Origin: an uncultured Pelagibacteraceae bacterium
GTDB lineage: Bacteria > Pseudomonadota > Alphaproteobacteria > Pelagibacterales > AG-422-B15
Assembly (NCBI GenBank): GCA_902544525.1
Contig: CACCCN010000002.1
Span: 81,416-145,415, forward strand
Direction: 5' to 3'
DNA: 64,000 bases
Below are positions 36,952-54,527 of the stretch, one piece after another. Under the pieces are notes generated by a model. That model was not told the origin of the DNA, searched no databases, and was given only the letters and a program-made list of their open reading frames with translations. Numbering within the stretch: the stretch's first letter is position 1; each line of letters starts with the position of its first letter. The translations under genes were made by a program, and so were the position numbers.

Positions 36952-36954
36952 AAA

Positions 36955-37716: not shown

Positions 37717-37723
37717 TGCTTAT

Positions 37724-38149: not shown

Positions 38150-39240
38150 TTTAAATTTCTTTCTTTTGCAATTTTTTCATATTCAGAAATTTGACTATTA
38201 GTAATTGTCTGAGTATTTAATTCATTTTTAAAATAGTCTTTATACCAATTAACAGTAAGTTTTATAGTTTCCTCAAACGTTAAAGTAGCGTTCCATTTTA
38301 GAAGTTCCATAGCTTTATCGCAATTAAGCTTTAGTAATCCTGACTCATTATTGAAAGAGGTGTTACTTGCATTAACCCATTTTCCCCCTTTCCAATGAAT
38401 ACTCATAGTGTTAGCTACATCTAGTACAGTATAATTGTACTTATCATTCGGTCCAAAGTTGAATGGTTCACCATGAATCTTTAAACCTTCATTTAAATTC
38501 ATCGCCAAACAAAGATAACCACTTAATGGCTCTAAAACATGCTGCCATGGACGAGTAGAATGAGGGTTTCTAATTTTTACTTCCTTTTTTTTATTCCAAG
38601 CAGTTATAATATCAGGAATTATTCTATCATTTGACCAATCTCCACCACCAATTACATTTCCAGCCCTCCCAATTGATATTCGAACTTTGGAGTTATTGTT
38701 AAAATACGATTTCAAATATGAATATATGGCAAGCTCAGTTGCTGCTTTAGAGCCGCTGTAAGGATCAGAACCTCCCAAAATATCTGTTTCTCTATAGCCC
38801 CATATCCACTCTGAATTTTTATAACATTTATCACTGGTAATTAAAACAACAGTACAATGGTTACTAAGGTTTCTACATGAATCTAATAAGTTAATAGTAC
38901 CTATTACATTTGTCTCCCAGGTGTCTCTAGGATTATTAAGTGATTCCTTTACTAAAGCCTGGGCCGCTAGGTGAAAAATAAAATCAGGTTTTATATCATT
39001 AATAATCGTATTAATTTTTTTGTGATCTCTTATATCTATTCTTATATCATTAATTTTTTTTTCTAAATTAATTTCATCAAAATGGGAGGGAGATGTAATA
39101 GGATCTAAAGCTAATCCAGTGATATTTGCTCCCATTAGGCTCAGCCATGATGTGAGCCAAGATCCTTTAAATCCTGTATGTCCTGTAATAAGAATTTTTT
39201 TACCATTAAATGTTTTATAAAATAGGTTTGATTGATTCAT
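38131..39240 (-). CDS. rfbG: CDP-glucose 4,6-dehydratase
   Basis: Converts CDP-glucose to CDP-4-keto-6-deoxyglucose. The 369 residues contain ITGHTGFKGSWLTSWLSLMGANITGLALDP, FHLAAQALVKESLNNPRDTWETNVIGT, ITSDKCYKNSEWIWGYRETDILGG and catalytic DPYSGSKAATELAI. This is a textbook RfbG. It opens the rfbG-cupin-rfbF-SDR operon. No RfbH (3-dehydratase) is nearby, so the product should be a CDP-6-deoxyhexose rather than a 3,6-dideoxyhexose. Confidence 0.96.
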   Translation of the reverse strand: MNQSNLFYKTFNGKKILITGHTGFKGSWLTSWLSLMGANITGLALDPITSPSHFDEINLEKKINDIRIDIRDHKKINTIINDIKPDFIFHLAAQALVKESLNNPRDTWETNVIGTINLLDSCRNLSNHCTVVLITSDKCYKNSEWIWGYRETDILGGSDPYSGSKAATELAIYSYLKSYFNNNSKVRISIGRAGNVIGGGDWSNDRIIPDIITAWNKKKEVKIRNPHSTRPWQHVLEPLSGYLCLAMNLNEGLKIHGEPFNFGPNDKYNYTVLDVANTMSIHWKGGKWVNASNTSFNNESGLLKLNCDKAMELLKWNATLTFEETIKLTVNWYKDYFKNELNTQTITNSQISEYEKIAKERNLNWAQVH

Positions 39241-39441: not shown

Positions 39442-40644
39442 CTAAAAATTTACCAGTTTCTCATATATAATTTGAGCTGACGTTATCTGCGCATCATCTG
39501 AATTATCAGAAATATAATTTTTAAAATAATTAATATAATTTTTATATTTTATTGAGATATTTAAATCGTAATAATTATCTTTTTTACTAGAAAGATTTAC
39601 AGATTTTGTACCCAATTCTGTTGCTAAATCTTCGATTGAGGCCCTATAATTGAATAAATAATTTTGAGAAGTCATGAAAATTAAAGGCTTATTATAAATG
39701 ACAGAAAAATTAACTGCTGTACTATTGTGTTGAATAACAAAAAAAGAATTTTTTATGAGTTCTAAAGTCTTATTCTTGAATGCTTTTCTACCATACGGGT
39801 TATCTTCGATGCTATATTGAGCTTTTGGATAAACTGCAATCACGACTTCGCAATTATATTTATTTTCTAGATAGTCAAAAAAATTACATATCTCCTTATA
39901 AAAAATATTTTTTTCACAAAGATTTTTTTTAAACCCATGATAATATGGATCTTTATGATTAGGAACATCCTCATCGATATATAGAATATATTTTTTTTTA
40001 AATTGTTTGCGAAGTAAATCATTACTTTCAGTATTTGAATTTTTATTTAAAAGAAATTCATTATATGCAAATGAATGAGCGCTAATTTTTAAGGAATCTG
40101 AATGTACATCAAAAGATATATTTTTTTTTGCATTATTTCCTGCATAAATAATAAACTTAGGCGAAATTTTATTTACCTTATTTTTGAATAAAAAAAAATT
40201 GACTGATCTTTTTTTTATCATTTCAAGTTTTTCAATTAAAATTTTTTGATTTAGTATAATAGTTCTGATAATGCCCATAAATGAAAGTTTATTAATAGGA
40301 TAATAAGATAATCTGAAATAACCCCATGTAATAAAATTCTTTTCAAGTTCTAAAAAAATCCATTCTGATTTAGTATTTAAACTTAAGCTTGTCATAACGA
40401 AAGTTTCTTTATTTATTTGTTTTGCTAATTTTTTGAAAGAATTTTTATCTAAAAAATTTATAATTTTTAAATTTTGATAACTATTAATAAAATCAGATTT
40501 TGGAATGGAGATGTTTTTAAGAATAAATTTGGAGATGTCCCATATTTCAATTTTTAAATTTTTTTTTAAATAAAAATCTATTTCGAATCTTTTGAAATCT
40601 CTTTCTAAAAATACATTTTCGTAAATAATTATAATTTTTTTCAT
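39442..40644 (-). CDS. Putative GT-B glycosyltransferase at end of nonulosonate operon (unrecognised family)
   Basis: A 400-residue protein I cannot assign confidently. No membrane helix is evident. The C-terminal half has a pattern common to surface-polysaccharide proteins: YNCEVVIAVYPKAQY, then KTLELIKNSFFVIQHNSTAVNFSVIYNKPLIFMTS. The HNSTAVNF...KPLIF segment resembles the donor-binding end of GT-B sialyl/nonulosonyl-type transferases. It is placed directly downstream of neuA (94-base gap), so transfer of the CMP-activated nonulosonic acid is a reasonable inference. It could instead be a processing protein. Confidence 0.7.
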   Translation of the reverse strand: MKKIIIIYENVFLERDFKRFEIDFYLKKNLKIEIWDISKFILKNISIPKSDFINSYQNLKIINFLDKNSFKKLAKQINKETFVMTSLSLNTKSEWIFLELEKNFITWGYFRLSYYPINKLSFMGIIRTIILNQKILIEKLEMIKKRSVNFFLFKNKVNKISPKFIIYAGNNAKKNISFDVHSDSLKISAHSFAYNEFLLNKNSNTESNDLLRKQFKKKYILYIDEDVPNHKDPYYHGFKKNLCEKNIFYKEICNFFDYLENKYNCEVVIAVYPKAQYSIEDNPYGRKAFKNKTLELIKNSFFVIQHNSTAVNFSVIYNKPLIFMTSQNYLFNYRASIEDLATELGTKSVNLSSKKDNYYDLNISIKYKNYINYFKNYISDNSDDAQITSAQIIYEKLVNF

Positions 40645-40738
40645 AAACTTAATTTTTAATCATTATTGAAAGAGTCTTATAGAGTATTAGAAAACTCATG
40701 AGTTGCCTCACTTTTTTTTACAATTATCATAAAATTTT

Positions 40739-41431
40739 TTAATATAGTTGACTAATTATTCTAGCTAATCTTAAGTCACTCATATCATCAATATCAATAC
40801 TATAATCTGAATTAAATTTATAAACTATTGACTTATTCTCTACAATGAAAGATTTATACTTCTTAATAAAAGAAGTAGTAGACAAATAAAAACTTCCATC
40901 AATAAAATAATAGTCACTTTCGTACTCTTGTCTTCCACTAATTTTTTTTTTATTTTTCTTAAGATAAGACCAATTTGATTTATTAGTCTTAATACATTCT
41001 CTTGGATGCTCTTTCATTTTGACTGCACCAAAGATAGATTCGATTTTTTTATGTTTAAATTTATTTATAGCAGCTTTTATCTCTTTTAAATTTCTAAATG
41101 GCGAAGTTGGTTGCAATAGGAGCACTGCATCTGGATCATAATTTTCAATTTTGTTGAGCCAATTTAGTGCATGTAACACAGCATCAACAACTTTACTTTT
41201 ATCAGTTGACAAGGAAATAGGTCTAACATAGTTGCTACTAATTCCTTTTTTTTTACAATAATTTAAGATTTCATTATTATCAGAAGATACAAATGTCCTA
41301 AAATTTTTTGGTAATTTTCTTGCTATATCTAAACTATAATCAATTAGTTTTTTATTGCCAATTATGGAGAGATTTTTTCTTTTTATACCTTTTGATCCAC
41401 CTCTTGCAGGAATAAACACAAGAACATTCAT
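40739..41431 (-). CDS. neuA: CMP-nonulosonic acid cytidylyltransferase (NeuA/LegF family)
   Basis: Activates a nonulosonic acid with CTP. The 230 residues start VLVFIPARGGSKGIKRKNLSIIGNKKLI, the CTP-binding loop of the family, with LLLQPTSPFRNLKEI and the Mg-binding YSIDIDDMSDLRLA near the end. It overlaps the DegT gene by 4 bases. Whether the substrate is legionaminic, pseudaminic or another acid cannot be read; the upstream LegC and PtmE-like genes favour legionaminic type. Confidence 0.93.
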   Translation of the reverse strand: MNVLVFIPARGGSKGIKRKNLSIIGNKKLIDYSLDIARKLPKNFRTFVSSDNNEILNYCKKKGISSNYVRPISLSTDKSKVVDAVLHALNWLNKIENYDPDAVLLLQPTSPFRNLKEIKAAINKFKHKKIESIFGAVKMKEHPRECIKTNKSNWSYLKKNKKKISGRQEYESDYYFIDGSFYLSTTSFIKKYKSFIVENKSIVYKFNSDYSIDIDDMSDLRLARIISQLY

Positions 41432-42564
41432 TTAAATATTTTCTCTAATTCTTTTGCTAGGGACTTATAATCATTTATTTTTTTCTTCAATTGAATTGGA
41501 ATTGCTATAGATGTTTTTAAAATATCTCTTGATATTTTTGAGCGAATTATATTTTTTTTTGAAAGTGCGTGATCCCAATAAAATGAACAATGCCACTCAA
41601 TTGCATCAGGTAGATTCTTAGTTCCAAATTCTAACTTATTTAAAAGATTAATTACCTGTTTTTTTAGTAATTTATTTTTTACAAAAAATATATAAGTATC
41701 GTAAATTAAATCACTTCCTTTTGGTATTGTTCTCATTTCAAGATATTTACCCACAATTTTATCAATAGCAAAATATCTGCGTTTATTTTCTGAAATTATA
41801 TAATCGAGTTTTTTTAATTGTTCTTTTCCAATTACAGCCTGAATTTCTGTCATTCTATAATTGAAACCATATATTTTTTTTGTATCTGTTCCTCTTGTTT
41901 TCCGTGGGTTATTTTGGTGACCATGATCGTGATATTCCTTAGCAAAATTATAAATTTTTTTTGACTTAGTATGTATTGTTCCTCCCTCTCCACACGTTAT
42001 TATCTTTCCAAAATCTAAACTTGCAACTCCTACATCGCCAATTGTACCTAGGTATTTTTTATTAAATCTGCCACCAAGAGCCTCGCAGTTATCCTCTAAA
42101 ACTTTAATTTTATATTTTTTTGCAATTTTAAGAATTTCTTTCATATTGGCTGGAACTCCAAGCATATGAACTGGAATTATTGCCTTAGTTTTCTTTGAAA
42201 TTAAATTTTCAATTTCTAAAGGATCAATATTTAATGAGTTATCGATGTTGGCTATAACCGGTTTCGCACCAATATCTAGTATTGCTTCAACTGTTGCAAT
42301 AAAGTTAAAAGCTTGAGTTATTACTTCGTCTCCTCTTTTAACCCCAATAGATAAAAGACCTATTTTTATTGCTGATGTTCCAGATGAAACTGCTAGAGTA
42401 TACTTAGATTTTAATTTTTTATTAAAATTTTGTTCAAATTCTCTAACATGATAATTTTTTCTAAGATTATTGAAACCATGCGCAAACAGAATACCATTTT
42501 CTTTTTTAAACAATCTATTAACTGCATTATACTCCTTACTGTCAATGATTTCAAACCCTGGCAT
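41428..42564 (-). CDS. DegT/DnrJ/EryC1 PLP aminotransferase (second copy, DHGH subtype)
   Basis: A sugar aminotransferase of 378 residues. The PLP-lysine region reads VASLDFGKIITCGEGGTIHT rather than the SFNGNK type of LegC, and is followed by AKEYHDHGHQNNPRKTRGTDTKKIYGFNYRMTEIQAVIGKEQL. The LDFGK/DHGH pattern recalls the KdnA-like branch, which acts on C8 of a keto-sugar acid; I am moderately sure of that resemblance. It overlaps both the PhyH dioxygenase (14 bases) and neuA (4 bases). A step on the nonulosonic acid just before CMP activation is therefore suggested. Confidence 0.9.
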   Translation of the reverse strand: MPGFEIIDSKEYNAVNRLFKKENGILFAHGFNNLRKNYHVREFEQNFNKKLKSKYTLAVSSGTSAIKIGLLSIGVKRGDEVITQAFNFIATVEAILDIGAKPVIANIDNSLNIDPLEIENLISKKTKAIIPVHMLGVPANMKEILKIAKKYKIKVLEDNCEALGGRFNKKYLGTIGDVGVASLDFGKIITCGEGGTIHTKSKKIYNFAKEYHDHGHQNNPRKTRGTDTKKIYGFNYRMTEIQAVIGKEQLKKLDYIISENKRRYFAIDKIVGKYLEMRTIPKGSDLIYDTYIFFVKNKLLKKQVINLLNKLEFGTKNLPDAIEWHCSFYWDHALSKKNIIRSKISRDILKTSIAIPIQLKKKINDYKSLAKELEKIFK

Positions 42565-43303
42565 ATTTTGTAATACTATTTTTGAGCTCTATCTCATACG
42601 TTTTTTTTCTGTTGAGATCGATTTTTGAAGACTTACCTATATATCTGATTGTTAATCCTCTTCTCGCATGCCGGCTAGTGTTTTTTTTGCTACCATGAAC
42701 AACCAGGCAATTATGAATTATACAATCGCCTCTTTTTATGTTTGGAATATTTTTTTTTAGAAGCTTCATGCTTTTTGGATATTTTAAAGTCTGTGATGAA
42801 CCAGGAGCGAATGATTGTGCATGTTCTAGTAATCCAAAATGGTGAGATTTATCATAATAAAAAACACCTCCATTTTTTTCATTAGAGTCATCGAGAGCAA
42901 TCCAAATTGTCAATCCTTTTGAATTATCCACACACCAATAATAATTATCTTGATGCATAGGAGAGGCTAGTCCCACTTTAGCAGGCTTTGCGAATAATTC
43001 GGAACCAAAATCTTTAATACTATCTTCAAGTAAGATTGAGGAAATTTTTTTTAAAACTTTATTATTTTTTAATTTTTTAGACCACCTCCAATTATTCATA
43101 AAGTGAACTGAATTTATAATATTATTCTTAGTTTTGTTTATATCTCTACCTTTGAAATTTTTTAATCTTAGCAAAAAAGATTCTTCTAAGTCTTTGCCGG
43201 CTGTAATTATATCTTTTTTATCAAAAATATTTCTAGCAACTATATACCCCTTAGTATCATATTCTTTTTTTAATCTTTGTATTTTTTTATTATCAAAAAT
43301 CAT
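42551..43303 (-). CDS. PhyH-type Fe(II)/2-oxoglutarate dioxygenase
   Basis: A non-haem iron dioxygenase of 250 residues in the phytanoyl-CoA hydroxylase family. The metal facial triad is visible as HQD in GLASPMHQDNYYWCVD and the distal His in IIHNCLVVHGSKKN. The 2-oxoglutarate-binding Arg lies in RRGLTIRYIG. It is embedded between a methyltransferase and the DegT gene in a nonulosonic-acid operon, overlapping the latter. Hydroxylation of, or oxidation on, the sugar acid is a reasonable inference, not shown by sequence. Confidence 0.9.
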   Translation of the reverse strand: MIFDNKKIQRLKKEYDTKGYIVARNIFDKKDIITAGKDLEESFLLRLKNFKGRDINKTKNNIINSVHFMNNWRWSKKLKNNKVLKKISSILLEDSIKDFGSELFAKPAKVGLASPMHQDNYYWCVDNSKGLTIWIALDDSNEKNGGVFYYDKSHHFGLLEHAQSFAPGSSQTLKYPKSMKLLKKNIPNIKRGDCIIHNCLVVHGSKKNTSRHARRGLTIRYIGKSSKIDLNRKKTYEIELKNSITKYARV

Positions 43304-43310
43304 TTTTATT

Positions 43311-44033
43311 CTATTTTATTTTTTTGCAGATAATTAAATATGGTGTAGATATTATCTCAAGTCCATTTCTGGTAATTCTTGTTCCATCGTCTAATTTGTG
43401 GGTATAGGTTCGTCTGTCGTCCTCAGTTTTTTCAATATCCATGTCTAAATTAAATTTTTTCAATATTACATCAAAATTATTTTTTTCGAACTCTTTTTGA
43501 ACTGTTTTCAGGCTAAATCTGTTCCATCCTTTTTCCCATACATCACTATCTACTGCCTTTACTCTTGTTATAACATCAAAATTTGATTCATTAAAAGAAC
43601 CAAATACATAAATTATCCCATTTTCTGAAACTAAACTAATAAGATTTTCAATCCATGGTGTGACCTCATCAAAAATTGTATGAACACCATCTAATATGAC
43701 AGCATCAAACTTTTTGCCACCAAATTTTTTCTCAACAGATGCTTTATCAAAAATATCTATATGATAAAATTTAGCTGAAGAACAATTATTTTTCGCTTTA
43801 AGTAGTAACTCTTCTAATATGTCGGCCCCACTAATTTCAACGTTCGGAAGCTCTTTATTCACGTATGATATGAAAACTCCTGTAGCACAACCAATATCTA
43901 ATAAACTAAATTTATTGCTATGATTTTTTTTTATTTCATTTAATAAAAATTTGAAACTTTCCTTAACCAAAAATTTTTCGTTTAAATAGAAATTATCATG
44001 TATTCTTTTGCTATTTTTAAAAATCTTTTCCAT
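43311..44033 (-). CDS. Class I SAM-dependent methyltransferase
   Basis: A 240-residue methyltransferase. Motif I is SLLDIGCATGVFISYVNKELPNVEISGADI, and the post-I acidic region FDAVILDGVHTIFDEV follows. There is no membrane segment. It abuts the PtmE-like gene (no gap) and precedes PhyH by 7 bases. Probably O- or N-methylates a sugar in the same pathway; the substrate is unknown. Confidence 0.87.
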   Translation of the reverse strand: MEKIFKNSKRIHDNFYLNEKFLVKESFKFLLNEIKKNHSNKFSLLDIGCATGVFISYVNKELPNVEISGADILEELLLKAKNNCSSAKFYHIDIFDKASVEKKFGGKKFDAVILDGVHTIFDEVTPWIENLISLVSENGIIYVFGSFNESNFDVITRVKAVDSDVWEKGWNRFSLKTVQKEFEKNNFDVILKKFNLDMDIEKTEDDRRTYTHKLDDGTRITRNGLEIISTPYLIICKKIK

Positions 44034-45107
44034 TTATTCTTCAAAATTCAATTTATTTAATGCTTTCTTATATTCATTCCATTGACCAATATCAACCCAT
44101 GCTTCTTGACTTACAGGAAAAACCCCTATTCTTTTTTTTAAAATAATTAACTTTTCGATTAATTGGGGTAAGTCAAACTTTGTATTTTTTGGAATTTGAT
44201 TAATTACTTCTTTACTCATAATATACATGCCAGTATTTGCCAAAAGGCTAATATTTGGTTTTTCATTAATTTTAACTAGTAATCCATCTTTATTAATTTT
44301 GCAGTCTCCATAAGGAATAGTATAATTTCTAAAAGAAGCTACAATAGTAATTATATTTTTATTTTTTTTATGATATTTGATTATGTCTGCGTAATCACAA
44401 TTAATAAGAATATCACAATTAGTGACAAAAAATATGGGTTTAATACTTTTAGTAATCTTTGACAGAGCGCCTATAGTGCCTAAAGGTTTTTTTTCTTCAA
44501 TAAAGGATATTTTATTTTCTTGATTCTTTTCATCAAAAAAAGCTTTTAAAATTCTACTTTTATGATTAATTGATAAAAAATATTCACTTACTCCAAAGTC
44601 ATTAAATTTATCCATAATGTGATCTATTATAGGTTTTCCATTTATTGGAATGAGTGGTTTAGGCAGTATTGAAGTGAAAGGTTCTAGTCTTGCTCCCTTT
44701 CCTCCCGCCATGATAACTACTGGTAATGAACTTTTTTTTATATTTTTCTTACTTACTTTTTGGAATACATCATCCATTTTGATAATTTTAGTAATAGTTT
44801 TGTTAGAAGTAACTATCGGAATTAAATCTAATAAAAAATTTAAAAATAAATTTTGCGCTTTTAGTTTGGTATATTTTTCCTCTGTCAAAAACTTGGGTTT
44901 TTTGTTAAATATAGTGGTAATTTTGTATGATAGCTTCTTTCCATTTAAGATAGCTTTTCTCACATCCCCATCACTTAAAGTCCCAAGCATTTTATTGTTT
45001 TTGTCAACAACAACTAGACATTTTGATCCACTGTTATCTATAGAATTGAGAGAATCCTGAATTGATGCAGTCTTATAAATGAGAAACTTATTAATGTCTA
45101 AACTCAT
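44034..45107 (-). CDS. CBS-domain sugar nucleotidyltransferase (PtmE-like)
   Basis: A fusion of tandem CBS domains (residues 1-120, e.g. CLVVVDKNNKMLGTLSDGDVRKAIL) with an NTP-transferase (about 128-357, VVIMAGGKGARLEPFTSILPKPLIPINGKPIIDHIMDKF). This is the PtmE layout; Campylobacter PtmE makes GDP-GlcN for legionaminic acid. With LegC and NeuC in the operon, it supports a GDP-sugar route to the nonulosonic acid. Nucleotide specificity is inferred from family, not visible. Confidence 0.9.
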   Translation of the reverse strand: MSLDINKFLIYKTASIQDSLNSIDNSGSKCLVVVDKNNKMLGTLSDGDVRKAILNGKKLSYKITTIFNKKPKFLTEEKYTKLKAQNLFLNFLLDLIPIVTSNKTITKIIKMDDVFQKVSKKNIKKSSLPVVIMAGGKGARLEPFTSILPKPLIPINGKPIIDHIMDKFNDFGVSEYFLSINHKSRILKAFFDEKNQENKISFIEEKKPLGTIGALSKITKSIKPIFFVTNCDILINCDYADIIKYHKKNKNIITIVASFRNYTIPYGDCKINKDGLLVKINEKPNISLLANTGMYIMSKEVINQIPKNTKFDLPQLIEKLIILKKRIGVFPVSQEAWVDIGQWNEYKKALNKLNFEE

Positions 45108-45118
45108 AATAGTAATTG

Positions 45119-46282
45119 TTAATTAATATCGAAAAATAATTTTTTAGTATTATTATTATTTAAATTGATTTTTTTTAAAATATCTAATATTTTTTTTGAT
45201 GAATTTAGCTTTCCATATGGATTAGTATAAATTGACATATCTCTATTTAGATTTAATTTGATGGCTTTATTTAAAGCCTTAGCGATAGATAATCTATCCT
45301 TTTTAGCATTTATAACAGACTTTGCGAATACTCTTCCAGTCTGTCTATCTCCAATATTCACAGACGGTGTACAGAAATAAGGGGCTTCAATAATTCCACT
45401 TGAGGAGTTTCCAACTACAATATTACAATGTTTTAATGCAGAATAGTATAATTTCTGCCCCATAGAATGATAACAAATTGAATTTGAGGGATTTTTTTTA
45501 ATAAAATCTTTAATTTTTTTATTAATAATCCCGCCTTGAGCATCCGCACTAGATAAAGTGAATATAATGGAACTATTTTTAATTTTTTTAATTTCACTAA
45601 TCATATTTTTAAATGCAAGCATTTCAAAACTTTGATTTGATGTTTCTGGATGAAAAGTAATTAGAAAATTATTTTTTTTAAGCTTTAGATTTATCTGTCT
45701 TTCAAAATTTTTTTTTGAAAATAATCTTTCACTTTTGATAGCTTCATAAGCTAAAGCACCAACATAAAAAACATTTTTTGGAAATTCTCCTAACTGTATA
45801 ACTCTTTTTTTGTATTCTTTAGTAGAAACAAAGTGCCATTTTGACATTTTTGTTATTGAATGACGCATATTTTCATCATTTGATCCAAGTGTTTTTTCTC
45901 CTCCATGAATATGAGCAATAGGTATATTGATATTCATTGCTGAAAATGTAGCAGCAAATATTTCATATCTATCGCCTAGTACAACTACTATATCCGGATC
46001 AAGTTTTTTATATGCATCGACAAAACCTAGAATAGCATTTGCAGTTAGTTTGGTGGTATCGTATTTATTGTTATTTTTTTTTATTGGAAGATATATTTTT
46101 TTATCAATTTTAAAACCATCGTCTATAATTTCTTTATGCGTATTACCATAAAACTTTGATAAATGTGTACCCGTTACTATTATTTGAAGCTTCAATAATT
46201 TTTCATTAGCTAGTCTAGAAATTAATTTTTTCAAAAGTCCATATTCTGCTCTACTTCCAGTTACAACACAAATTTTTTTCAT
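45119..46282 (-). CDS. neuC: Hydrolysing UDP/GDP-sugar 2-epimerase (NeuC/LegG family)
   Basis: Hydrolyses NDP-GlcNAc-like sugar with 2-epimerisation to free ManNAc-like sugar, the NeuB substrate. The 387 residues show CVVTGSRAEYGLLKKLISRL, VLGDRYEIFAATFSAMNINIPIAHIHGGEKTLGSNDENMRHSITKMS and the C-terminal NIVVGNSSSGIIEAPYFCTPSVNIGDRQTGR. This is the NeuC/LegG pattern. Given LegC and PtmE nearby, the substrate is probably a GDP-linked 2,4-diacetamido-6-deoxyhexose. Confidence 0.93.
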   Translation of the reverse strand: MKKICVVTGSRAEYGLLKKLISRLANEKLLKLQIIVTGTHLSKFYGNTHKEIIDDGFKIDKKIYLPIKKNNNKYDTTKLTANAILGFVDAYKKLDPDIVVVLGDRYEIFAATFSAMNINIPIAHIHGGEKTLGSNDENMRHSITKMSKWHFVSTKEYKKRVIQLGEFPKNVFYVGALAYEAIKSERLFSKKNFERQINLKLKKNNFLITFHPETSNQSFEMLAFKNMISEIKKIKNSSIIFTLSSADAQGGIINKKIKDFIKKNPSNSICYHSMGQKLYYSALKHCNIVVGNSSSGIIEAPYFCTPSVNIGDRQTGRVFAKSVINAKKDRLSIAKALNKAIKLNLNRDMSIYTNPYGKLNSSKKILDILKKINLNNNNTKKLFFDIN

Positions 46283-46312
46283 TTATTATTTCAATATTAA
46301 CTAATATTATAT

Positions 46313-47539
46313 TTAGTCATCAACTCCATCTTTATTAACTGTATGCCTTAGGTACCATTTGCCATCTACTTCTATCCATAAATGTGGTGATCGAAAATCA
46401 TCACACCGCTTATGGAAGTAATCTTCTTTTATGTCTAGATAATTCAATATTTCTTTTAAATACCTATCTGGTAATTCACCATCAAATCTCTTGGCCAAAG
46501 CTTTTCCTTCCTCCCTAGTGAGGTGATTATTTCGTATCTCCTGAGAAGCTTCGTCAGTAGCCCTTCCAATGCCAAACTTAATAAATCTTGTATACCAGTG
46601 TAAGTCATCAATTTTATCGTCAATACTATTATACTTACTATATGTACCTTGTGATCTATGAGGCCTCGCTCTAAAATTTGTGTTTTCAACTGCAAAATAG
46701 TAAGCCTCTTGTGGTATCCACTTAATATAATATCCAAGATAATGAATTTGAATATTCTCTTTATATTCACTGTCTAAAAGTGGTAAGAATATTTTTAAGT
46801 CCTTAAGGTCCAATCCATAAACTTCCTTTAACTCCTTTAAGCTTTTTCCTGCAAGCATAATTGAATCAAAATCTTTGATCGAAAAAAATGATTTATCTCT
46901 TAAAGATTGATTATTATCTGCAATAGGATTTCCGTACTCCGCTTCATTTTCTCCGTAAAAAACTAAATCAATTCCATATTTTGTTGCAATTTTTGGAGCT
47001 AAATTTTTTTGACCTAGTATAAAAGTTTGAAATGGATGTAATAACGTTTCTATAGCGATTTTTGTTAGCTTTCTCATCACTTCTCCAGAAGGTTTGTATG
47101 TAATATTATCAAATCCTCCTATATCTAACCAATTCTTATAGTTTTCATAACCATAGTCTGTGTACATTATAGGTGGCCATGTAATCGTCAAAGGATTCAT
47201 TCCATATTTATGCTTCAAAAGATATGAGGCATAAACACTATCTTTACCCCCACTTCCAGGCACTAGACAATCATATTCTCCATCACTTCTCCTATAATTA
47301 TCTAACAACTTCAGAAGCTGATCCTCTCTATTCTTCCAGTCAATTTCTGTTTTTATTATAGCTTGAGTACAAGCATCACAAATATTTTCATCACTAAAAT
47401 TAACATAATTAGCATTTTTTCTGTCGACTGAATGCTGAAATTCAGGTACTGAAGCCGGATACTGATTTGAATTTACGCAAATACTACAAAATTTAACCTC
47501 ACTTGGTAAGTTGTAATATGTTTCTAATTTTTTTTTCAT
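46313..47539 (-). CDS. N-acetyl sugar amidotransferase (PseA/WbpG family), set 1
   Basis: ATP-dependent amidotransferase converting an acetamido group to acetamidino, with NH3 supplied by a HisH/HisF pair. The 408 residues have N-terminal Cys pairs (CSIC ... CDAC), the ATP-PPase loop LVPGSGGKDSVYASYLL and a C-terminal ARPHRSQGTYSKY segment. It overlaps hisH by 4 bases, in the nonulosonate operon. The target is probably the 5- or 7-acetamido group of the nonulosonic acid or its hexose precursor. A second divergent copy is at 59416. Confidence 0.92.
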   Translation of the reverse strand: MKKKLETYYNLPSEVKFCSICVNSNQYPASVPEFQHSVDRKNANYVNFSDENICDACTQAIIKTEIDWKNREDQLLKLLDNYRRSDGEYDCLVPGSGGKDSVYASYLLKHKYGMNPLTITWPPIMYTDYGYENYKNWLDIGGFDNITYKPSGEVMRKLTKIAIETLLHPFQTFILGQKNLAPKIATKYGIDLVFYGENEAEYGNPIADNNQSLRDKSFFSIKDFDSIMLAGKSLKELKEVYGLDLKDLKIFLPLLDSEYKENIQIHYLGYYIKWIPQEAYYFAVENTNFRARPHRSQGTYSKYNSIDDKIDDLHWYTRFIKFGIGRATDEASQEIRNNHLTREEGKALAKRFDGELPDRYLKEILNYLDIKEDYFHKRCDDFRSPHLWIEVDGKWYLRHTVNKDGVDD

Positions 47540-48165
47540 AAAAGTTTTTTTATTTCATTAAAAATTTTTATTCCATTATTACCGCTTTTCTCTGGATGAA
47601 ATTGAAAGGCGGTAACATTTTCCGTAATTATTGAAGAACAATAAGTTGTATCTTGGTAAGTTGTGGAAGTCAATTCAATATCCTTTGACTGAGGTGTAAC
47701 ATAGTATGAGTGAACAAAATACATAAATTCTTTATTAAGATTATTTTTCATAACAGAGTTTTTATAATTGTTATTGTTGAATGATACTTTATTCCAGCCA
47801 ACGTGAGGTACTATAAGTTTTTTTTTTACATTCGAATCAAACCTTGAAACTTTTCCTTTAATAATTCCTAGGCCTTGTGTTGATCCAAATTCTGCACTTT
47901 CATCAAATAACAATTGCATTCCTAAACAAACACCAAAAAAAGGTTTACCAGTACTTATAAAATCATAAATTGATTTATCTAAATTTTTATTTTTTATATT
48001 TTGTATAGCTTCTCTAAATGCTCCAACACCTGGCAGTATAGCAATCTTAGAATTTAAGATTACTTCATGGTCATCAGTTATAATAGAATTAATTCCTATA
48101 TTATTACATGCATTCTGAACACTATAAAGATTATTCATTCCATAATTTATTATTGATATTTCCAT
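47536..48165 (-). CDS. HisH-like glutamine amidotransferase, set 1
   Basis: A class I glutaminase of 209 residues. The nucleophile is in FFGVCLGMQLLFDES and the His-Glu pair in AFQFHPEKSGNNG; all three catalytic residues are kept, so it should be active. It overlaps the amidotransferase gene and follows the HisF-like gene by 4 bases. In this context the ammonia goes to sugar amidation, not histidine synthesis. Confidence 0.92.
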   Translation of the reverse strand: MEISIINYGMNNLYSVQNACNNIGINSIITDDHEVILNSKIAILPGVGAFREAIQNIKNKNLDKSIYDFISTGKPFFGVCLGMQLLFDESAEFGSTQGLGIIKGKVSRFDSNVKKKLIVPHVGWNKVSFNNNNYKNSVMKNNLNKEFMYFVHSYYVTPQSKDIELTSTTYQDTTYCSSIITENVTAFQFHPEKSGNNGIKIFNEIKKLL

Positions 48166-48169
48166 ATTT

Positions 48170-49015
48170 CTACTTATCTCGAATCGGTACTATATCCTTG
48201 AGTTCATTTTTTATTTTTTTTATATCAATTGGTCCAAATGACTTAAATTTTTTAAAATTAGATACAAAATTTTTATTTCCCTCTATAGTCTCATTATCAA
48301 TAAACTCATTATCAAATAATGCTCCATAGTGAATAATCGACGCTATTGCAACAGCATTTGCACCACTTAAAAAGGCTTGCTCAATGTGCTTTGTCACACC
48401 TATACCCCCATGGGCTATTAAAGGTACTGAAATTAAATCTCTTATTTTTTCAATTAAGTATGTATCGCACCCAGTGCCGGTGCCATCTCTATCAATCGAT
48501 GTAATCATAATTTCTCCAGCACCTAAGTCCTCTAATTTTTTACACCATTCGAATATGTCTATTCCAGTATATTCTCTCCCGTTATCTGTGTAAGCAAGAT
48601 AAGTCTTATTTTCAGACTCTATAGTCTCAACAGTTGCAACAATTGTTGATGAACCAAATATTCTTGATGCTTCTTTAATTATATTTGGGTTATTAATTGC
48701 TGCTGTGTTTATTGCTACTTTATCTGCACCTGCTTCTAACGCATTACTTATGTCGGAGATTTCTCTTATTCCTCCACCGACTGTAAGTGGAATAGAAATT
48801 GTTTTTGCAGTATTTCTTATAAATTCTAAAATTGAATTTCTATTATATAAACTTGCAACTACATCTTGATAAAATAGTTCATCAGCTCCATCTATAAAAT
48901 ATTTATTAGCAAACTGACTAGGAGATCCAAGCACTCTTAAACCTTCTAAATGAATACCTTTTACTAAATTAGGTCCTTTTATGTCTAAGCGCGCTATTAT
49001 TCTTGGAAAAATCAT
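48170..49015 (-). CDS. HisF-like ammonia-channelling subunit, set 1
   Basis: A TIM-barrel HisF relative of 281 residues, about 25 longer than true HisF. It begins FPRIIARLDIKGPNLVKGIHLEGLRVLG. Compared by eye with HisF, the first catalytic Asp (in RLDIKG) is kept while the second is replaced by Glu (VATVETIES). Typical repeats GGGIREISDI and HGGIGVTKHIEQAFLSGA are present. It channels NH3 from HisH, and the operon context (PseA-like amidotransferase, NeuB) rules out a histidine role. Confidence 0.9.
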   Translation of the reverse strand: MIFPRIIARLDIKGPNLVKGIHLEGLRVLGSPSQFANKYFIDGADELFYQDVVASLYNRNSILEFIRNTAKTISIPLTVGGGIREISDISNALEAGADKVAINTAAINNPNIIKEASRIFGSSTIVATVETIESENKTYLAYTDNGREYTGIDIFEWCKKLEDLGAGEIMITSIDRDGTGTGCDTYLIEKIRDLISVPLIAHGGIGVTKHIEQAFLSGANAVAIASIIHYGALFDNEFIDNETIEGNKNFVSNFKKFKSFGPIDIKKIKNELKDIVPIRDK

Positions 49016-49019
49016 AATA

Positions 49020-50054
49020 TTATTTTACGATAAATTCATCAGGTTTATAATCTCTGTTGGCTTTTTTTCCAATAAATTTATCCCACTCCAGTGGAGATAT
49101 TCCAGTACCTGGTCTTTTAATTGTAATATTTTTTTTATTAAATATTTCACCTTTTTTAATATAAGAATTAGCTACTAAAGATTTTCTTACTAACTTAATA
49201 TTATTTTTTTCCCGCGGAACTGGTACTTTTTTTCCGTCACCATAAATTTGCGAAATATTTCTAATTGACTTAACCATTTGTGAAAACTCTTTTTCCTCCA
49301 GGCTGGCCTTGTGATCTGGACCAGGTAATTTTTTATCGATAGTAAAATGCTTTTCAATAACTGAAGCACCTAGAGTTGCTGCGGCTATAGCAACATCATT
49401 TCCAATTGTATGATCTGAATATCCAACTTTTACACCTAACTTATCTCTCATCAAAATCATAGCAGATAGGTTTACGTCTTTTAGATTTGTAGGATAGTCA
49501 GTAGTACAATGCAAAACAGTAATTTTATTTTTTGGAAGCCCATTGGATTTTAAAATTTCAATAGCACTTGATACTTCACTTAGTGTGGCCATTCCACTAG
49601 ACATAATTACATTTTTTTTTTGTTTTGCTATTTCTCTAAGATAGGGGAGATTATTTATCTCACCAGATGGAATTTTTATTTTTTTTAAATTTAATTTTTT
49701 TATATCTAAAATACAGTCTACATCAAAGGGGCTAAGCATAAATTCTATTTTTATTTTTTTACAATAGTTAGAGAGTTTTTTCATTTGTTTTATAGATAAC
49801 TCAAGTTCTTTTAATATTTGAAATTGAGTTTTTTTTTGTAAAGAGCTATTTTCTCTAATATACTTTGGTTTGTCTGCTTTTTGAGTGATTAAATTATTAG
49901 CTTTAAATAATTGAAATTTTACAATATCTGCCCCACATCTTTTAGCTGCCTTTATTAACTTAAAGGCGAGACTAACTCTGCCATTATGATTTACACCAGC
50001 TTCAGCAATTATAATTACTTTTTTTGGAAACTTAAATTTGTTCATTATCCCCAA
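49020..50054 (-). CDS. neuB: Nonulosonic acid synthase (NeuB/LegI family)
   Basis: Condenses PEP with an N-acetylmannosamine-like sugar to a nonulosonic acid. The 344 residues have an N-terminal TIM barrel (VIIIAEAGVNHNGRVSLAFKLIKAAKRCGADIVKFQLF, SDHTIGNDVAIAAATLGASVIEKHFTIDKKLPGPDH) and a C-terminal antifreeze-like SAF domain (RKSLVANSYIKKGEIFNKKNI). The start could be at 50054 or three codons later (50045); both overlap neuD slightly. Defines the operon as nonulosonate-making. Confidence 0.96.
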   Translation of the reverse strand: MGIMNKFKFPKKVIIIAEAGVNHNGRVSLAFKLIKAAKRCGADIVKFQLFKANNLITQKADKPKYIRENSSLQKKTQFQILKELELSIKQMKKLSNYCKKIKIEFMLSPFDVDCILDIKKLNLKKIKIPSGEINNLPYLREIAKQKKNVIMSSGMATLSEVSSAIEILKSNGLPKNKITVLHCTTDYPTNLKDVNLSAMILMRDKLGVKVGYSDHTIGNDVAIAAATLGASVIEKHFTIDKKLPGPDHKASLEEKEFSQMVKSIRNISQIYGDGKKVPVPREKNNIKLVRKSLVANSYIKKGEIFNKKNITIKRPGTGISPLEWDKFIGKKANRDYKPDEFIVK

Positions 50055-50634
50055 TATCTTTTGTGATTGTGGATCCCATCTTTATAAAACATTGTGATCC
50101 AATTGAAATACCCTCTCTAATAATACAACCACTTCCAATGAATGTATTATTTCCAATTTTGACATTGCCATTAATGATTGTTCCTGTAGATACATGAGAA
50201 TTATTTCCAATTTGAGATTCGTGCTCAATAATTACAGATGTATTAATAATAGAGTTATGTCCTATTTGAACTTTGGGACCAATTACCACACTATGCATTA
50301 TAATAGTAGACTCTTCTATAAAATTTTTATCTGCTGTGATTGCTGACGGTGCAATAATACAAGGCAAATTATAATCTAAGCTTTTAAGAAGGTTATAAGC
50401 TTTTAACCTAGGCTCAAAATTTTTTATTTGCCCTATACCAATAAATGCATAATTAATTTTTTTTCTTAACTTTTTTAAATCCGAGTCATTACCAATCAAA
50501 GGATAACTTGATTTTGATGAAAAATTTTTATAATTATCAATAATCCCATGAATATTATAAGTAGATAAAGATTCAATAATACTTATAGATGATAAGCTAT
50601 GACCTCCTGAACCAATAATAATTATGTTATTCAT
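50032..50634 (-). CDS. NeuD/LegH/PglD-type sugar O/N-acetyltransferase
   Basis: A 200-residue protein with an N-terminal Rossmann-like PglD_N domain (NIIIIGSGGHSLSSISIIESL) and a C-terminal left-handed beta-helix of hexapeptide repeats (VVIGPKVQIGHNSIINTSVIIEHESQIG). The His before the repeats (IIEHESQIG) matches the catalytic His of the family. It probably N-acetylates the 4-amino-6-deoxy sugar made by LegC. Overlaps legC by 8 bases and neuB by up to 23. Confidence 0.9.
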   Translation of the reverse strand: MNNIIIIGSGGHSLSSISIIESLSTYNIHGIIDNYKNFSSKSSYPLIGNDSDLKKLRKKINYAFIGIGQIKNFEPRLKAYNLLKSLDYNLPCIIAPSAITADKNFIEESTIIMHSVVIGPKVQIGHNSIINTSVIIEHESQIGNNSHVSTGTIINGNVKIGNNTFIGSGCIIREGISIGSQCFIKMGSTITKDIGDNEQI

Positions 50635-51787
50635 TTATTATTGCAACCACGCGTTTGATATCTTTTGTAGTAAGTGAAATACTGCTTGGCAAGCATAGTG
50701 TTCTATTTACCAGAATTAGAGCATTGCTAATATTATATTTTTCACATTTTTTATATATCTTCTGTAAATGGTTTAATTGCCAAATTGGTCTTACTTCAAT
50801 TTTATTTTTTTTAAACATTTCAATTTTTTTTAGTAAGTTTTTTTTTGTATTACAGTCAATAAATTCAACAAGGTTCAACCAATGATTACTGCTAGCAAAT
50901 TTTGGAATCTCTTTAAATAATATTTTATTGTTTTTACCAATTAATTTTTTATAATGTTGATATATTAATTTCTTTTTTTTAAGGTATTGATTTATTTTCT
51001 CTAGCTGTGCCAATCCTAATGCTGCCTGAATATTAGTTAATCTGTAGTTATATCCAACTTCATTATGAATAAACTCAAGAGTATTATCTTTTGCTGTTGT
51101 TGTTAAATATTTAGCTTTTTGTGCTAATAATTTGTTATTTGTTATTATCATACCACCGCCACCAGATGTAATGACTTTATTGCCATTGAATGATAAACAG
51201 CCAAATTTTCCAATTGTACCAACATGCTTATTTTTATTATCACCTTTTTCAAAAAAATTACCCAAACCTTCAGCTGCATCTTCAATTATTGAAATATTTT
51301 TACTTTTACATACTTTCAAAAGTTCATCCAGTAAGACTGATCTTCCATAAACATGGACAACTATAATGGCTAAAATTTTTCTTTTTGTTTTCTTATTTAT
51401 AGTTATTCCGTTTTTAAAAATCGTCTTTGTATTTAAAAATTCAATAGTCTTTTTAATATCTATTGTGTAATTATCATCAACATCCATAAATACAGGTTTG
51501 GCATTACAATAATTAATAGCATTTATTGGTGCTATAAACGATATAGTTGGAACTATAACTTCATCATTTCTTGATATCCCTGATAGTATTAGTGATATAT
51601 GCAGTGCGGAAGTTCCGTTTATACAGGCTATTGCATATTTAGCCTTAGTATAATCTTCGATTTTATTCTCAAATAAATCTACATACTTGCCGGTAGATGA
51701 GACCCAATTTGTCTTAAGGCAGTCTTTTATATATTTCCACTCATTTCCAGATATATGTGGTACTGATAATGGTATAAAGTTATTCAT
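50627..51787 (-). CDS. legC: LegC-family PLP sugar aminotransferase
   Basis: Aminates the 4-keto-6-deoxy sugar to a 4-amino sugar in legionaminic-type synthesis. The 386 residues match LegC throughout: FIPLSVPHISGNEWKYIKDCLKTNWVSSTGKYVDLFE, VPTISFIAPINAINYCNAKPVFMDVDDNYTIDI, the PLP lysine in LSFNGNKVITSGGGGMI and FIHNEVGYNYRLTNIQAALGLAQLE. It overlaps the SDR gene by 8 bases. The 4-keto substrate requires a dehydratase (LegB) that is not obvious here. Confidence 0.94.
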   Translation of the reverse strand: MNNFIPLSVPHISGNEWKYIKDCLKTNWVSSTGKYVDLFENKIEDYTKAKYAIACINGTSALHISLILSGISRNDEVIVPTISFIAPINAINYCNAKPVFMDVDDNYTIDIKKTIEFLNTKTIFKNGITINKKTKRKILAIIVVHVYGRSVLLDELLKVCKSKNISIIEDAAEGLGNFFEKGDNKNKHVGTIGKFGCLSFNGNKVITSGGGGMIITNNKLLAQKAKYLTTTAKDNTLEFIHNEVGYNYRLTNIQAALGLAQLEKINQYLKKKKLIYQHYKKLIGKNNKILFKEIPKFASSNHWLNLVEFIDCNTKKNLLKKIEMFKKNKIEVRPIWQLNHLQKIYKKCEKYNISNALILVNRTLCLPSSISLTTKDIKRVVAIINE

Positions 51788-52784
51788 GTAATTGATAATT
51801 TATATTATAATTTCCATAACGATTTTTATTTGAATCAATATCAATAAACTCATTATGATTTAGTGCATTTAAAATTTCCTCTATACCATCTCTTATGCTG
51901 AACTTTGGAATGAAATCTAGTATATTTTTTACTTTATTAAAATTTACAATATAGTTCCTTGGATCGCTTCCATTAGATGAATATGAAACATTAGAAGAGT
52001 CTATAAAACTTGTTATTTCACTGACAATTTGTTTTTTTGTTGCATGGTTTGATTGTCCTCCAGCATTAAATATTTCGAAGGATACTTTATTTTTTGGTGA
52101 ACTTATAACAATATCAATTAACCTCGCAAAATCCTTTACATGACAATAAGGCCTCCACGTATTTTCATCATAAATTGAAAGCTTATTATTTTTAAATAGC
52201 TCATAAGTAAATTCATTTACAGTTAAATCAAATCTCATCCTTTCTGAAAGACCAAAAGCTGTTGCGAATCTTAATATAGTTGGTACATAATCAACTTTTC
52301 CCTTTAAAGACATTAAAAACTTTTCTGCATCTACTTTATGTTTAGCGTATAATGATAAAGGTTTTAAATCAGTATTTTCATCTGCTTTAATATTATTATT
52401 TACTAAGCCATAATTTGAACAAGTAGAAATAAAAATTAACCTCTCAATATTCTTTTCTGATAATAATAAAAATAATTTTTTGATACCAATCAAATTTATA
52501 GCTTGTGACTCTTCAGGATATTTTTTAGTAATTGGATCACCAACTAAACCTCCTAAGATTACAGCATAATTTACTCCAGATAAGTTTTGAATTAAACTTT
52601 TAGAATCACAAAAATCTATATTTACAACTTCAAGGTTTTTATTATTTATTTTTTTAATGATAAATGAATTATCATAGATAAATAAATCATATATCAGAAC
52701 CTTATAGCCCTTATCTAAAAAATATTGAGCTATTACTGATCCTATATAACCTCCACCGCCAATTAATAAAATTTTTTTATACAT
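51780..52784 (-). CDS. NAD-dependent epimerase/dehydratase (SDR) in nonulosonate operon
   Basis: An extended SDR of 334 residues. Rossmann motif LIGGGGYIGSVIAQYFLD, active site FISTCSNYGLVNNN and catalytic SLYAKHKVDAEKF. It lies between the ABC flippase gene (4-base gap) and legC (8-base overlap). It does not look like classical LegB, but it is the only candidate in the operon for the missing 4,6-dehydratase; it could equally be an epimerase for another sugar. Confidence 0.86.
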   Translation of the reverse strand: MYKKILLIGGGGYIGSVIAQYFLDKGYKVLIYDLFIYDNSFIIKKINNKNLEVVNIDFCDSKSLIQNLSGVNYAVILGGLVGDPITKKYPEESQAINLIGIKKLFLLLSEKNIERLIFISTCSNYGLVNNNIKADENTDLKPLSLYAKHKVDAEKFLMSLKGKVDYVPTILRFATAFGLSERMRFDLTVNEFTYELFKNNKLSIYDENTWRPYCHVKDFARLIDIVISSPKNKVSFEIFNAGGQSNHATKKQIVSEITSFIDSSNVSYSSNGSDPRNYIVNFNKVKNILDFIPKFSIRDGIEEILNALNHNEFIDIDSNKNRYGNYNINYQLHE

Positions 52785-52787
52785 AAA

Positions 52788-54527
52788 TTATTTTTCTAAC
52801 TCAATTCTTCCGTTTTTTATTCTAAATATTTTATCACAATATGTTATAGTTTCTTGCCGATGGGAAATCATTATTATAGTTTTTGATCCTTTTAAATTGT
52901 TAATTTGATTCATTATCTCACTTTCTATTCTACTATCCAAGGCACTAGTAGCTTCATCAAACATTAAAATTTCTTTATCAAAATAAAAGGCCCGTGCCAA
53001 CGCTATTCTTTGCTTTTGTCCGCCAGATAAATTTATACCGTTTTCATTTATTTCAGTCTTTAAGCCATTCGGCAACTCACAAATAAAATCAAATAATTGA
53101 GCTTGTTTTACTACCATCTCAATTTTTTTTAAATTTATCAATTTAGGATCTTCACCTAATGCAATATTTTTAATTATAGTATCTTGAATCAGAAAAACAT
53201 CCTGTGGCAAATATGCAACTTTATCTTGCCACATCCTTAAACAATTTTGAATTTCTAAATCATTGAGAAGTATTTTTCCTTTACTAGGATTTAGAAGTCC
53301 TAAAATTAAATTTATTAATGTTGTTTTGCCCGAGCCTGACTCGCCAATAATTGCAATTGTATCTCCAGCTTGTATTTCAAATGAAATATTTTCAAGAACT
53401 TTAAATTCATTTTTTGGATAAGAATATGAAACATTATCAATTTTTAGCAATTTAAATGCTGCTTTCAAGTCTGTTTGTTTACTTATTTTATTTTCACTGC
53501 TTTTAGGGTTATTAAGTGTTGAGACTTCTTTATAAATTCTATTTATAGAATCTTCTCCATACTTAAAAACTCCAAAAAACCTTGTAATTTGATTAAGCAT
53601 TGGTGCCACCCTTAGTGCGGCGGCTGCGAAGAGACTTACTATTGGTACAATTGAATTAAATTCAACACCTGCTAGCATGCTTACAAAAATTAAAGAAACT
53701 ATAAATAGTATAATTACAAATTCAAGTAAGAGCCTCGGAATTGCAGTGATTATTGCTTGTTTAGTTTCACTCTTTGCTACTAATTCTGTTCCATTTATTA
53801 TTTTATCATCAAAATAAAAATAATTATTTAAAATCCTAATTTCTTTGAAGCCACTAAAAAATTCTTGTATGCCTCTATAAATATTATTAAGACCGCTGTT
53901 TACCTGTATACCTAATAACTTAGAACTATCTAAATAAAAAATTTTGTATAAATAAATTGTAAAGGCTAAAATTGAAACGAGAGCTAATAATATAGGTCCA
54001 CTTGCAAAAAAAAGCAGTATGAAAATGAATGTTGCAACTATCATATCTCCAATAAATAATAATAATCCATTTAAAACTGCGCCATAAGCCTTAACATATA
54101 TTCCTACAGAGGCTATCGTAATCGAGCTATCTCTATATATGTATTCTTCATAGGGTAGCTTTTTGTAAGTATTTAATATTTTAAATCTAATATCTTTAAT
54201 ACAGTTTTGCGTGAAGTAAAATATTTTGTAATAAGTAGCAATTGACAATATAAATTTAATGAAAAATATGAACACTAAAAAACCTCCGGTAATTATTGCA
54301 AGTTTATAAAGTGGAATATTTTCTATTGGATAATTAAAAGAATCAATAAAAGAACTATTATAAATTATTTCTGGAGATACGATTAGTGATGCATAAATTG
54401 ATATTGTTCCAATGCCAATTAAATCTAAGGTGGAGGTAAAAATAAATAAAAAAATAATGATTGCTAATTGTTTTTTATTACTACCTGATAAATAATAAAT
54501 CTGTTTTAAATATTCTCTAATTTTCAT
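52788..54527 (-). CDS. ABC transporter, PglK/MsbA-type lipid-linked oligosaccharide flippase
   Basis: A 579-residue fused permease-ATPase. Six membrane helices occupy about residues 1-320, and the nucleotide-binding domain follows with Walker A GESGSGKTTLINLILG, Q-loop YLPQDVFLIQDT, signature NLSGGQKQRIALARA, Walker B EILMFDEATSALD and H-loop MISHRQE. The protein resembles PglK, which flips lipid-linked oligosaccharide. No Wzx gene is visible, so this protein probably supplies the export step. Confidence 0.93.
   Translation of the reverse strand: MKIREYLKQIYYLSGSNKKQLAIIIFLFIFTSTLDLIGIGTISIYASLIVSPEIIYNSSFIDSFNYPIENIPLYKLAIITGGFLVFIFFIKFILSIATYYKIFYFTQNCIKDIRFKILNTYKKLPYEEYIYRDSSITIASVGIYVKAYGAVLNGLLLFIGDMIVATFIFILLFFASGPILLALVSILAFTIYLYKIFYLDSSKLLGIQVNSGLNNIYRGIQEFFSGFKEIRILNNYFYFDDKIINGTELVAKSETKQAIITAIPRLLLEFVIILFIVSLIFVSMLAGVEFNSIVPIVSLFAAAALRVAPMLNQITRFFGVFKYGEDSINRIYKEVSTLNNPKSSENKISKQTDLKAAFKLLKIDNVSYSYPKNEFKVLENISFEIQAGDTIAIIGESGSGKTTLINLILGLLNPSKGKILLNDLEIQNCLRMWQDKVAYLPQDVFLIQDTIIKNIALGEDPKLINLKKIEMVVKQAQLFDFICELPNGLKTEINENGINLSGGQKQRIALARAFYFDKEILMFDEATSALDSRIESEIMNQINNLKGSKTIIMISHRQETITYCDKIFRIKNGRIELEK

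Follow-up and report, generated by a model that had tools for sequence, protein, structure and literature searches.

Which sugar does a legionaminic-type operon make when LegB, the dehydratase that should supply its aminotransferase, is missing? The question is raised by a stretch of 64,000 nucleotides from an uncultured Pelagibacteraceae bacterium (GCA_902544525.1, contig CACCCN010000002.1, positions 81,416 to 145,415), hereafter the window, in which 14 open reading frames (ORFs) at 39442-52784 (-) encode a complete nonulosonic acid (NulO) pathway. All of them are uninterrupted and co-directional, and the distances between them range from -23 to +30 bp, except for 94 bp between the genes of a NeuA-like cytidylyltransferase and a putative glycosyltransferase (GT). 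An earlier note on the window had described a tightly packed operon on one strand and had counted pseudogenes as a possible weakness of its reading; the ORFs lie where it placed them, and all 14 are intact. Profile scans against Pfam and NCBIfam models with curated cut-offs agree with its view of a legionaminic-type NulO operon carrying a PtmE-like gene and lacking the classical LegB, since no LegB over the cut-off was found in the operon or in the host genome, a 1.26 Mb assembly that is 87% complete. We propose, with a probability of about 0.5, that these genes specify a GDP-linked variant of the legionaminic pathway in which the sugar would not be deoxygenated at C6 and would later be aminated at C9.

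The gene preceding that of the LegC aminotransferase encodes a short-chain dehydrogenase/reductase (SDR; 51780-52784, -), which scores 52 bits with the LegB model TIGR04180 against a cut-off of 475. Among solved structures, 6vo6/6vo8 is the closest to it (162 bits, the second-best match having 69 bits), which we take to be Cj1427 of the Campylobacter jejuni capsule. In the aligned active sites, the SDR has STCSNYG, Cj1427 has NTNSGYG and the LegB type has STSEVYG, the Glu of this motif being the catalytic acid in RmlB/GMD-type dehydratases. Both the SDR and Cj1427 have Ser at this position, share an RMRxDL motif and belong to the same SDR subfamily. Cj1427 is a C4-dehydrogenase that converts GDP-D-glycero-D-manno-heptose to the 4-keto sugar, in assays with alpha-ketoglutarate (PMC10680097), and it feeds heptose epimerases and reductases, whereas in the window the SDR gene stands before that of LegC among NulO genes.

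A search for LegC relatives covered 397 genomes of the order, and about 60 loci were examined: 12 contain the SDR (the window counted), 25 contain LegB, 5 a second LegB-like form (TSEVYS), and 19 were untyped. The counts given here compare the SDR type with 30 LegB-type loci (25 LegB plus 5 TSEVYS), omitting the 19 untyped ones. At the Glu position, Ser is found in 12/12 SDR-type sequences, as in Cj1427, and Glu in 30/30 LegB-type sequences, a comparison that is partly circular since the locus classes were assigned in part by this motif. The whole-sequence tree is free of this circularity and is the independent evidence; it nests Cj1427 in a starred group with all 12 SDR-type sequences and separates LegB in another starred clade. 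We consider it likely that the SDR is a non-dehydrating C4-dehydrogenase. C4 is accordingly predicted to be oxidised and aminated with no 6-deoxygenation, leaving a 9-OH.

The SDR and LegB replace one another in otherwise comparable clusters. Loci L101 and L110 have the order NeuA-PtmE-NeuC-NeuD-LegC-X in common, with highly similar flanks, X being the SDR in L101 and LegB in L110. In a second pair, L072 and L088, LegC is 75% and a formyltransferase 66% identical, with the first gene swapped (SDR and LegB, respectively). A TylF-type methyltransferase (L101:5900-6589, -) is present in L101 and not in its LegB-type counterpart. The trees of LegC, NeuB, NeuC and PtmE intermix both types with no clean sorting, and the idea of SDR-specific clades of NeuB or NeuC was rejected on this basis. 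The exchange together with the mixed trees indicates that the SDR feeds LegC a 4-keto sugar, as LegB does, and most simply this sugar keeps its 6-OH. A one-for-one replacement beside LegC and intermixed LegC, NeuB and NeuC trees would also be expected if the SDR performed LegB chemistry, as a 4,6-dehydratase whose active site is atypical. We regard this as improbable, since the catalytic Glu/Asp is absent in all 12 sequences, the nearest characterised relative, nested among them, is a non-dehydrating C4-dehydrogenase, and another GT family and the PhyH-DegT pair (see below) track the SDR type, which points to a different sugar. The best NCBIfam model of the SDR is GalE, a weak match (76 bits against 262) that would suit an epimerase acting on C4 of a GDP- or UDP-sugar, unrelated to LegC amination; the steady adjacency to LegC, the exchange with LegB and the grouping with Cj1427 make such a function very improbable.

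For the missing LegB, the earlier note had proposed that the SDR or a PglF-like protein encoded at 25370 replaces it, or that the pathway differs. The first option, the SDR as a dehydratase, found no support: the lack of the dehydratase Glu and the grouping with Cj1427 most likely mean a pathway different in kind, without 6-deoxygenation. The PglF option is possible and less likely. It would imply an ordinary 6-deoxy legionaminic-type pathway: LegC would receive a UDP-4-keto-6-deoxy sugar from the PglF-like protein, the SDR would have some other task, and the methyl at C9 or a different carbon would be the target of PhyH. There is a FlaA1/PglF-type dehydratase gene at that position, elsewhere in the same island (368 bits), and the Legionella dehydratase lpg0966 is located outside its locus (PMC3766260), both of which count against our proposal. 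On the other hand, the SDR adjoins LegC in 12 loci and occupies the exact place of LegB in the near-syntenic pairs, and L101 and L110 both have a separate PglF, whichever enzyme occupies the swap site. Moreover, PtmE suggests GDP while PglF suggests UDP, and the neighbours of the PglF gene encode a PIG-L protein and a C-methyltransferase, with no NulO genes. We find a supply by PglF unlikely and keep the predicted C4-dehydrogenase as the more probable source of the 4-keto sugar.

The predicted 9-OH would give meaning to two other genes of the operon, encoding a PhyH Fe/2-oxoglutarate (2OG) dioxygenase (42551-43303, -; PF05721, 86.7 bits, cut-off 22), a predicted oxidant of the terminal CH2OH, and a DegT aminotransferase (41428-42564, -; DegT model, 251.2 bits, cut-off 19.8). 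The nearest solved structure of the latter is 5k8b (208 bits), the transaminase KdnA that makes 8-amino Kdo (3-deoxy-D-manno-octulosonic acid), Kdo8N, in Shewanella. Its identity is 41% to KdnA over 270 aa versus 30% to LegC, and by analogy it is predicted to aminate the terminal carbon. PhyH has an HxD...H motif and an Arg invariant in every aligned relative, and its model (pLDDT 91) matches 2OG hydroxylases (TM 0.80). Among 14 genomes of the order with a KdnA-like DegT, PhyH is adjacent in 12, an iron alcohol dehydrogenase (Fe-ADH) in one and neither in one; most of these loci also hold NeuB/SpsE and a cytidylyltransferase. PhyH and DegT are a mobile pair. No PhyH relatives were found outside the order among 385 genomes across the class, nor in phages.

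Several loci reproduce parts of the arrangement. L066 has the core order of the window, SDR-LegC-NeuD-NeuB-NeuC-PtmE-PhyH-DegT-NeuA, with the amidine genes and the methyltransferase absent. L035 contains NeuD to PtmE, PhyH and the SDR before the contig ends, and a NeuB scan of the genome contigs returned this locus only. In the SDR-type L126, which has the SDR, LegC and DegT, an Fe-ADH (PF00465) stands at the place of PhyH; as such an enzyme needs a pre-existing OH, an existing OH would be oxidised. In L062, the pair accompanies NeuC, NeuB and NeuA, with no pathway dehydratase recognised in the cluster, and a stand-alone CBS-domain protein (L062:3971-4315, -) is encoded there where PtmE usually sits. 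A KdnA-like DegT accompanies LegC in 3/12 SDR-type versus 0/30 LegB-type loci (p = 0.019), or in 4/12 versus 0/30 (p = 0.004) if L035, truncated by the contig end and with PhyH present, is counted, figures that come from 3 or 4 loci of one bacterial order whose related genomes are not independent. The confinement of the pair to SDR-type LegC clusters fits a terminal amination, since this step depends on a terminal OH and LegB would eliminate that group. The extra amination and oxidation steps of the earlier note are thus retained, and its "additionally aminated" product takes the form of a terminal-carbon amination module, on the basis of the KdnA resemblance and the recurrent linkage.

In addition to the limits given with the counts, some points weigh against C4 oxidation followed by C9 amination. 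The known substrate of Cj1427 is a heptose, not N-acetylglucosamine (GlcNAc). PhyH enzymes usually hydroxylate C-H, the oxidation of CH2OH to CHO being less common. The Fe-ADH of L126 matches KdnB with 50 bits only, other Fe-ADHs being better, up to 90. Furthermore, PhyH-DegT also occurs in SpsE/SpsF clusters, so the pair is no proof of position 9. This last point would agree with a sugar that keeps its 9-OH while PhyH-DegT acts at C8, on the ring or on an N-acyl side chain, and an 8-amino NulO is indeed known from Flexibacter (Tenacibaculum) maritimus, a natural 5,7,8-triamino-9-deoxy compound (PMC3210612). That example proves that triamino NulOs exist, with the third amino group at C8 and a methyl at C9, versus the C9 amination predicted here. 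Against another position, KdnA, the nearest characterised relative of the DegT, aminates the terminal C8 of Kdo after its oxidation by KdnB (PMC5125639), and the replacement of PhyH by an alcohol dehydrogenase in L126 implies oxidation of an OH already in place. We consider a site other than C9 rather unlikely.

A further marker of the SDR type is the last gene of the operon, encoding the putative GT (39442-40644, -). It has no match in Pfam or NCBIfam, and its profile found no PDB relative by sequence; the predicted fold is GT-B-like, with moderate confidence (AlphaFold2 pLDDT 69). When the gene families of the two locus classes were compared without bias, the GT family was the best non-trivial marker, occurring in 5/12 SDR-type and 0/30 LegB-type loci. 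With a hidden Markov model and matches above 100 bits, the counts become 6/12 and 0/30 (p = 1.8e-4), with three weak matches at 27-53 bits in LegB loci. This distribution fits a different sugar.

The family scans uphold the annotations that the earlier note gave to the remaining genes, all on the reverse strand, with LegC, NeuD, NeuB, NeuC, HisH and the amidotransferase over their cut-offs. LegC (50627-51787; TIGR04181, 459.8 bits, cut-off 420) is predicted to perform the 4-amination, and is followed by the N-acetyltransferase NeuD/LegH (50032-50634; TIGR03570, 172.3 bits, cut-off 160.8). NeuB/LegI (49020-50054), the synthase that condenses the sugar with phosphoenolpyruvate (PEP), reaches 450.7 bits with TIGR03569 (NeuB_NnaB; cut-off 399.65) and 277 bits with the PseI model, under its cut-off. 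Since no PseI, PseC or PseB is over the cut-off in the operon, it does not qualify as a pseudaminic acid pathway. NeuC/LegG, the hydrolysing 2-epimerase (45119-46282), has 432.7 bits with TIGR03568 (cut-off 235.9). The NeuA-like CMP-nonulosonate cytidylyltransferase (40739-41431; PF02348, CTP_transf_3, 70.8 bits) has PseF as its best named model (103 bits against 205.7) and CMP-NeuAc synthetases as its nearest PDB entries. The PtmE-like protein (44034-45107) combines CBS and NTP_transferase domains; its nearest structures include HddC-type enzymes, guanylyl- and uridylyltransferases. It is tentatively predicted to be a GlcNAc-1-phosphate guanylyltransferase, which would make GDP-GlcNAc. Neither PtmA nor PtmF is among the 14 ORFs, and both accompany a PtmE-like homologue in the LegB-type cluster L071.

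An acetamidino system is complete in the operon. It is formed by a HisF-like subunit (48170-49015), clearly assigned although its scores with HisF (245 bits), WbuZ (236) and AglZ/HisF2 (176) are all under the equivalog cut-offs, a HisH-like glutaminase subunit (47536-48165; TIGR01855, 199.6 bits, cut-off 105.4) and an N-acetyl sugar amidotransferase (NASAT) of the PseA/WbpG/PtmG type (46313-47539; WbuX, 315.7 bits, cut-off 203.2). The last is a full-length relative of LpNASAT (PDB 8wex, 466 bits), the amidotransferase of Legionella (PMC10607449). An S-adenosylmethionine-dependent methyltransferase is also encoded (43311-44033; Methyltransf_31/12/25). The earlier note had taken a methylated and amidinated product as possibly undescribed; however, legionaminic acid with a 5-acetamidino group or N-methylation is already known from Legionella and Campylobacter (PMC3766260, PMC13306086), and these parts of the claim are ordinary. 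The actual novelty is the change from LegB to the SDR plus the terminal-amination pair. A second HisF-HisH-amidotransferase-like set is found at 58069-60579 (-), about 4 kb upstream of the transporter of the operon, with 34%, 34% and weak similarity to the operon genes, which suggests that the island encodes another amidine modification or a related one.

The family assignments, the exchange between the SDR and LegB and the PhyH-DegT pair are supported by sequence, phylogeny and synteny, and from them we infer the substrates, the C9 position, the order of the late steps and the methylation site. The PtmE-like protein would form GDP-GlcNAc, and the SDR would oxidise its C4 and keep the 6-OH, yielding GDP-4-keto-GlcNAc. 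LegC would then aminate C4 and NeuD would acetylate the new amine to give the 4-acetamido sugar, which NeuC would epimerise and release as 2,4-diacetamido-mannose. Condensation with PEP by NeuB would produce a 5,7-diamino-3,5,7-trideoxynonulosonate with a 9-OH, where the legionaminic pathway yields a 5,7-diamino-3,5,7,9-tetradeoxynonulosonate. PhyH may oxidise C9 and the KdnA-like DegT aminate it, resulting in a 5,7,9-triamino-3,5,7,9-tetradeoxynonulosonate; we advance this full product tentatively, at a little less than even odds. One N-acetyl group would be converted to acetamidino by HisF, HisH and NASAT, and the methyltransferase is predicted to methylate the product, which would be partly amidinated and methylated. 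After CMP activation by NeuA, its placement in a surface glycan would fall to the GT-B transferase and the ABC transporter. The gene of this ABC transporter/flippase (52788-54527, -; PF00005) lies upstream of the SDR gene with a gap of 3 bp and is probably in the same transcription unit, which would then have at least 15 genes.

The GDP-linked CMP-legionaminic pathway of C. jejuni/coli (PtmE, LegB, LegC, LegH, LegG, LegI, LegF; PtmG, PtmH) is alike in LegC, NeuD, NeuC, NeuB, NeuA, the PtmE-like protein, the amidotransferase and the methyltransferase. The operon differs from it by the Cj1427-type SDR in the place of LegB, the lack of PtmA/PtmF and the additional HisF/HisH, PhyH and KdnA-like DegT. 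The lipopolysaccharide legionaminic locus of Legionella pneumophila (Leg5Am7Ac, N-methylated by ORF8) shares a NASAT-type amidotransferase, NeuA-NeuD, a LegC-type aminotransferase and a methyltransferase, but its 4,6-dehydratase is encoded away from the locus and its sugar is 9-deoxy, and PhyH-DegT is not reported there in the literature examined. As in the Shewanella Kdo8N pathway (KdnB oxidase and KdnA transaminase), a KdnA-like DegT is beside a cytidylyltransferase, and the Fe-ADH of L126 is of KdnB's class; in the window a 2OG dioxygenase would take the part of the oxidant, with no KdnB-type Fe-ADH in the operon, and NeuB would supply a nonulosonate as the acid. Searches of the open-licence literature brought up no paper that describes a 5,7,9-triamino NulO or deals with SAR11 NulO pathways. 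The operon may represent a new NulO branch, a possibility that we hold just short of an even chance, where a Cj1427-type SDR replaces the 4,6-dehydratase and a pair of PhyH or Fe-ADH with a KdnA-like enzyme aminates C9.

Downstream, 201 bp separate the GT from a CDP-glucose dehydratase gene, in a CDP-sugar module (36046-39240, -) with RfbG over the cut-off, RfbF at 282 of 300 bits and another SDR. This dehydratase (38131) was set aside as a supplier of LegC, being over the RfbG cut-off and having its own cytidylyltransferase. About 4 kb past the window, on the same contig (C2), a 631-aa protein fuses a NeuB domain to a xylose-isomerase-like domain (L014:4394-8126); with its neighbours, a GMD-like SDR and a cytidylyltransferase, it forms a separate unusual ulosonate-type pathway. 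Pyruvate-kinase barrel-domain proteins are encoded near NeuB-type genes in L014:11558-13914, together with an ATP-sulfurylase, and in L059:15034-16014. A phylum-wide search with the SDR returned Cj1427-like SDRs, with no NulO-type LegC found in the short flanks, and several of them adjoin MptE-like proteins, which resemble Maf flagellin glycosyltransferases. In more distant genomes of the phylum (L171 and L173), SDRs with 58-64% identity to that of L072 lie beside large MptE-like (PF01973) proteins, possibly another NulO context. Plasmid searches with the SDR and the DegT gave distant relatives only.

If the proposed pathway is true, NulO diversity exceeds the usual division between neuraminic-like acids, with a 9-OH and no 7-amino group, and Leg/Pse-like acids, which have the 7-amino group and are 9-deoxy. 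Hybrids of a third class, combining the 7-amino group with a 9-OH or a 9-amino group, would then be common in a marine order of high abundance. The motif beside LegC, STSEVYG or STCSNYG, would be a sequence rule separating the two types and would explain clusters that automatic annotation would label legionaminic. PhyH-DegT pairs would gain a first role, and recognition by phages and grazers could be affected by surface sugars that are cationic, triamino and amidinated.

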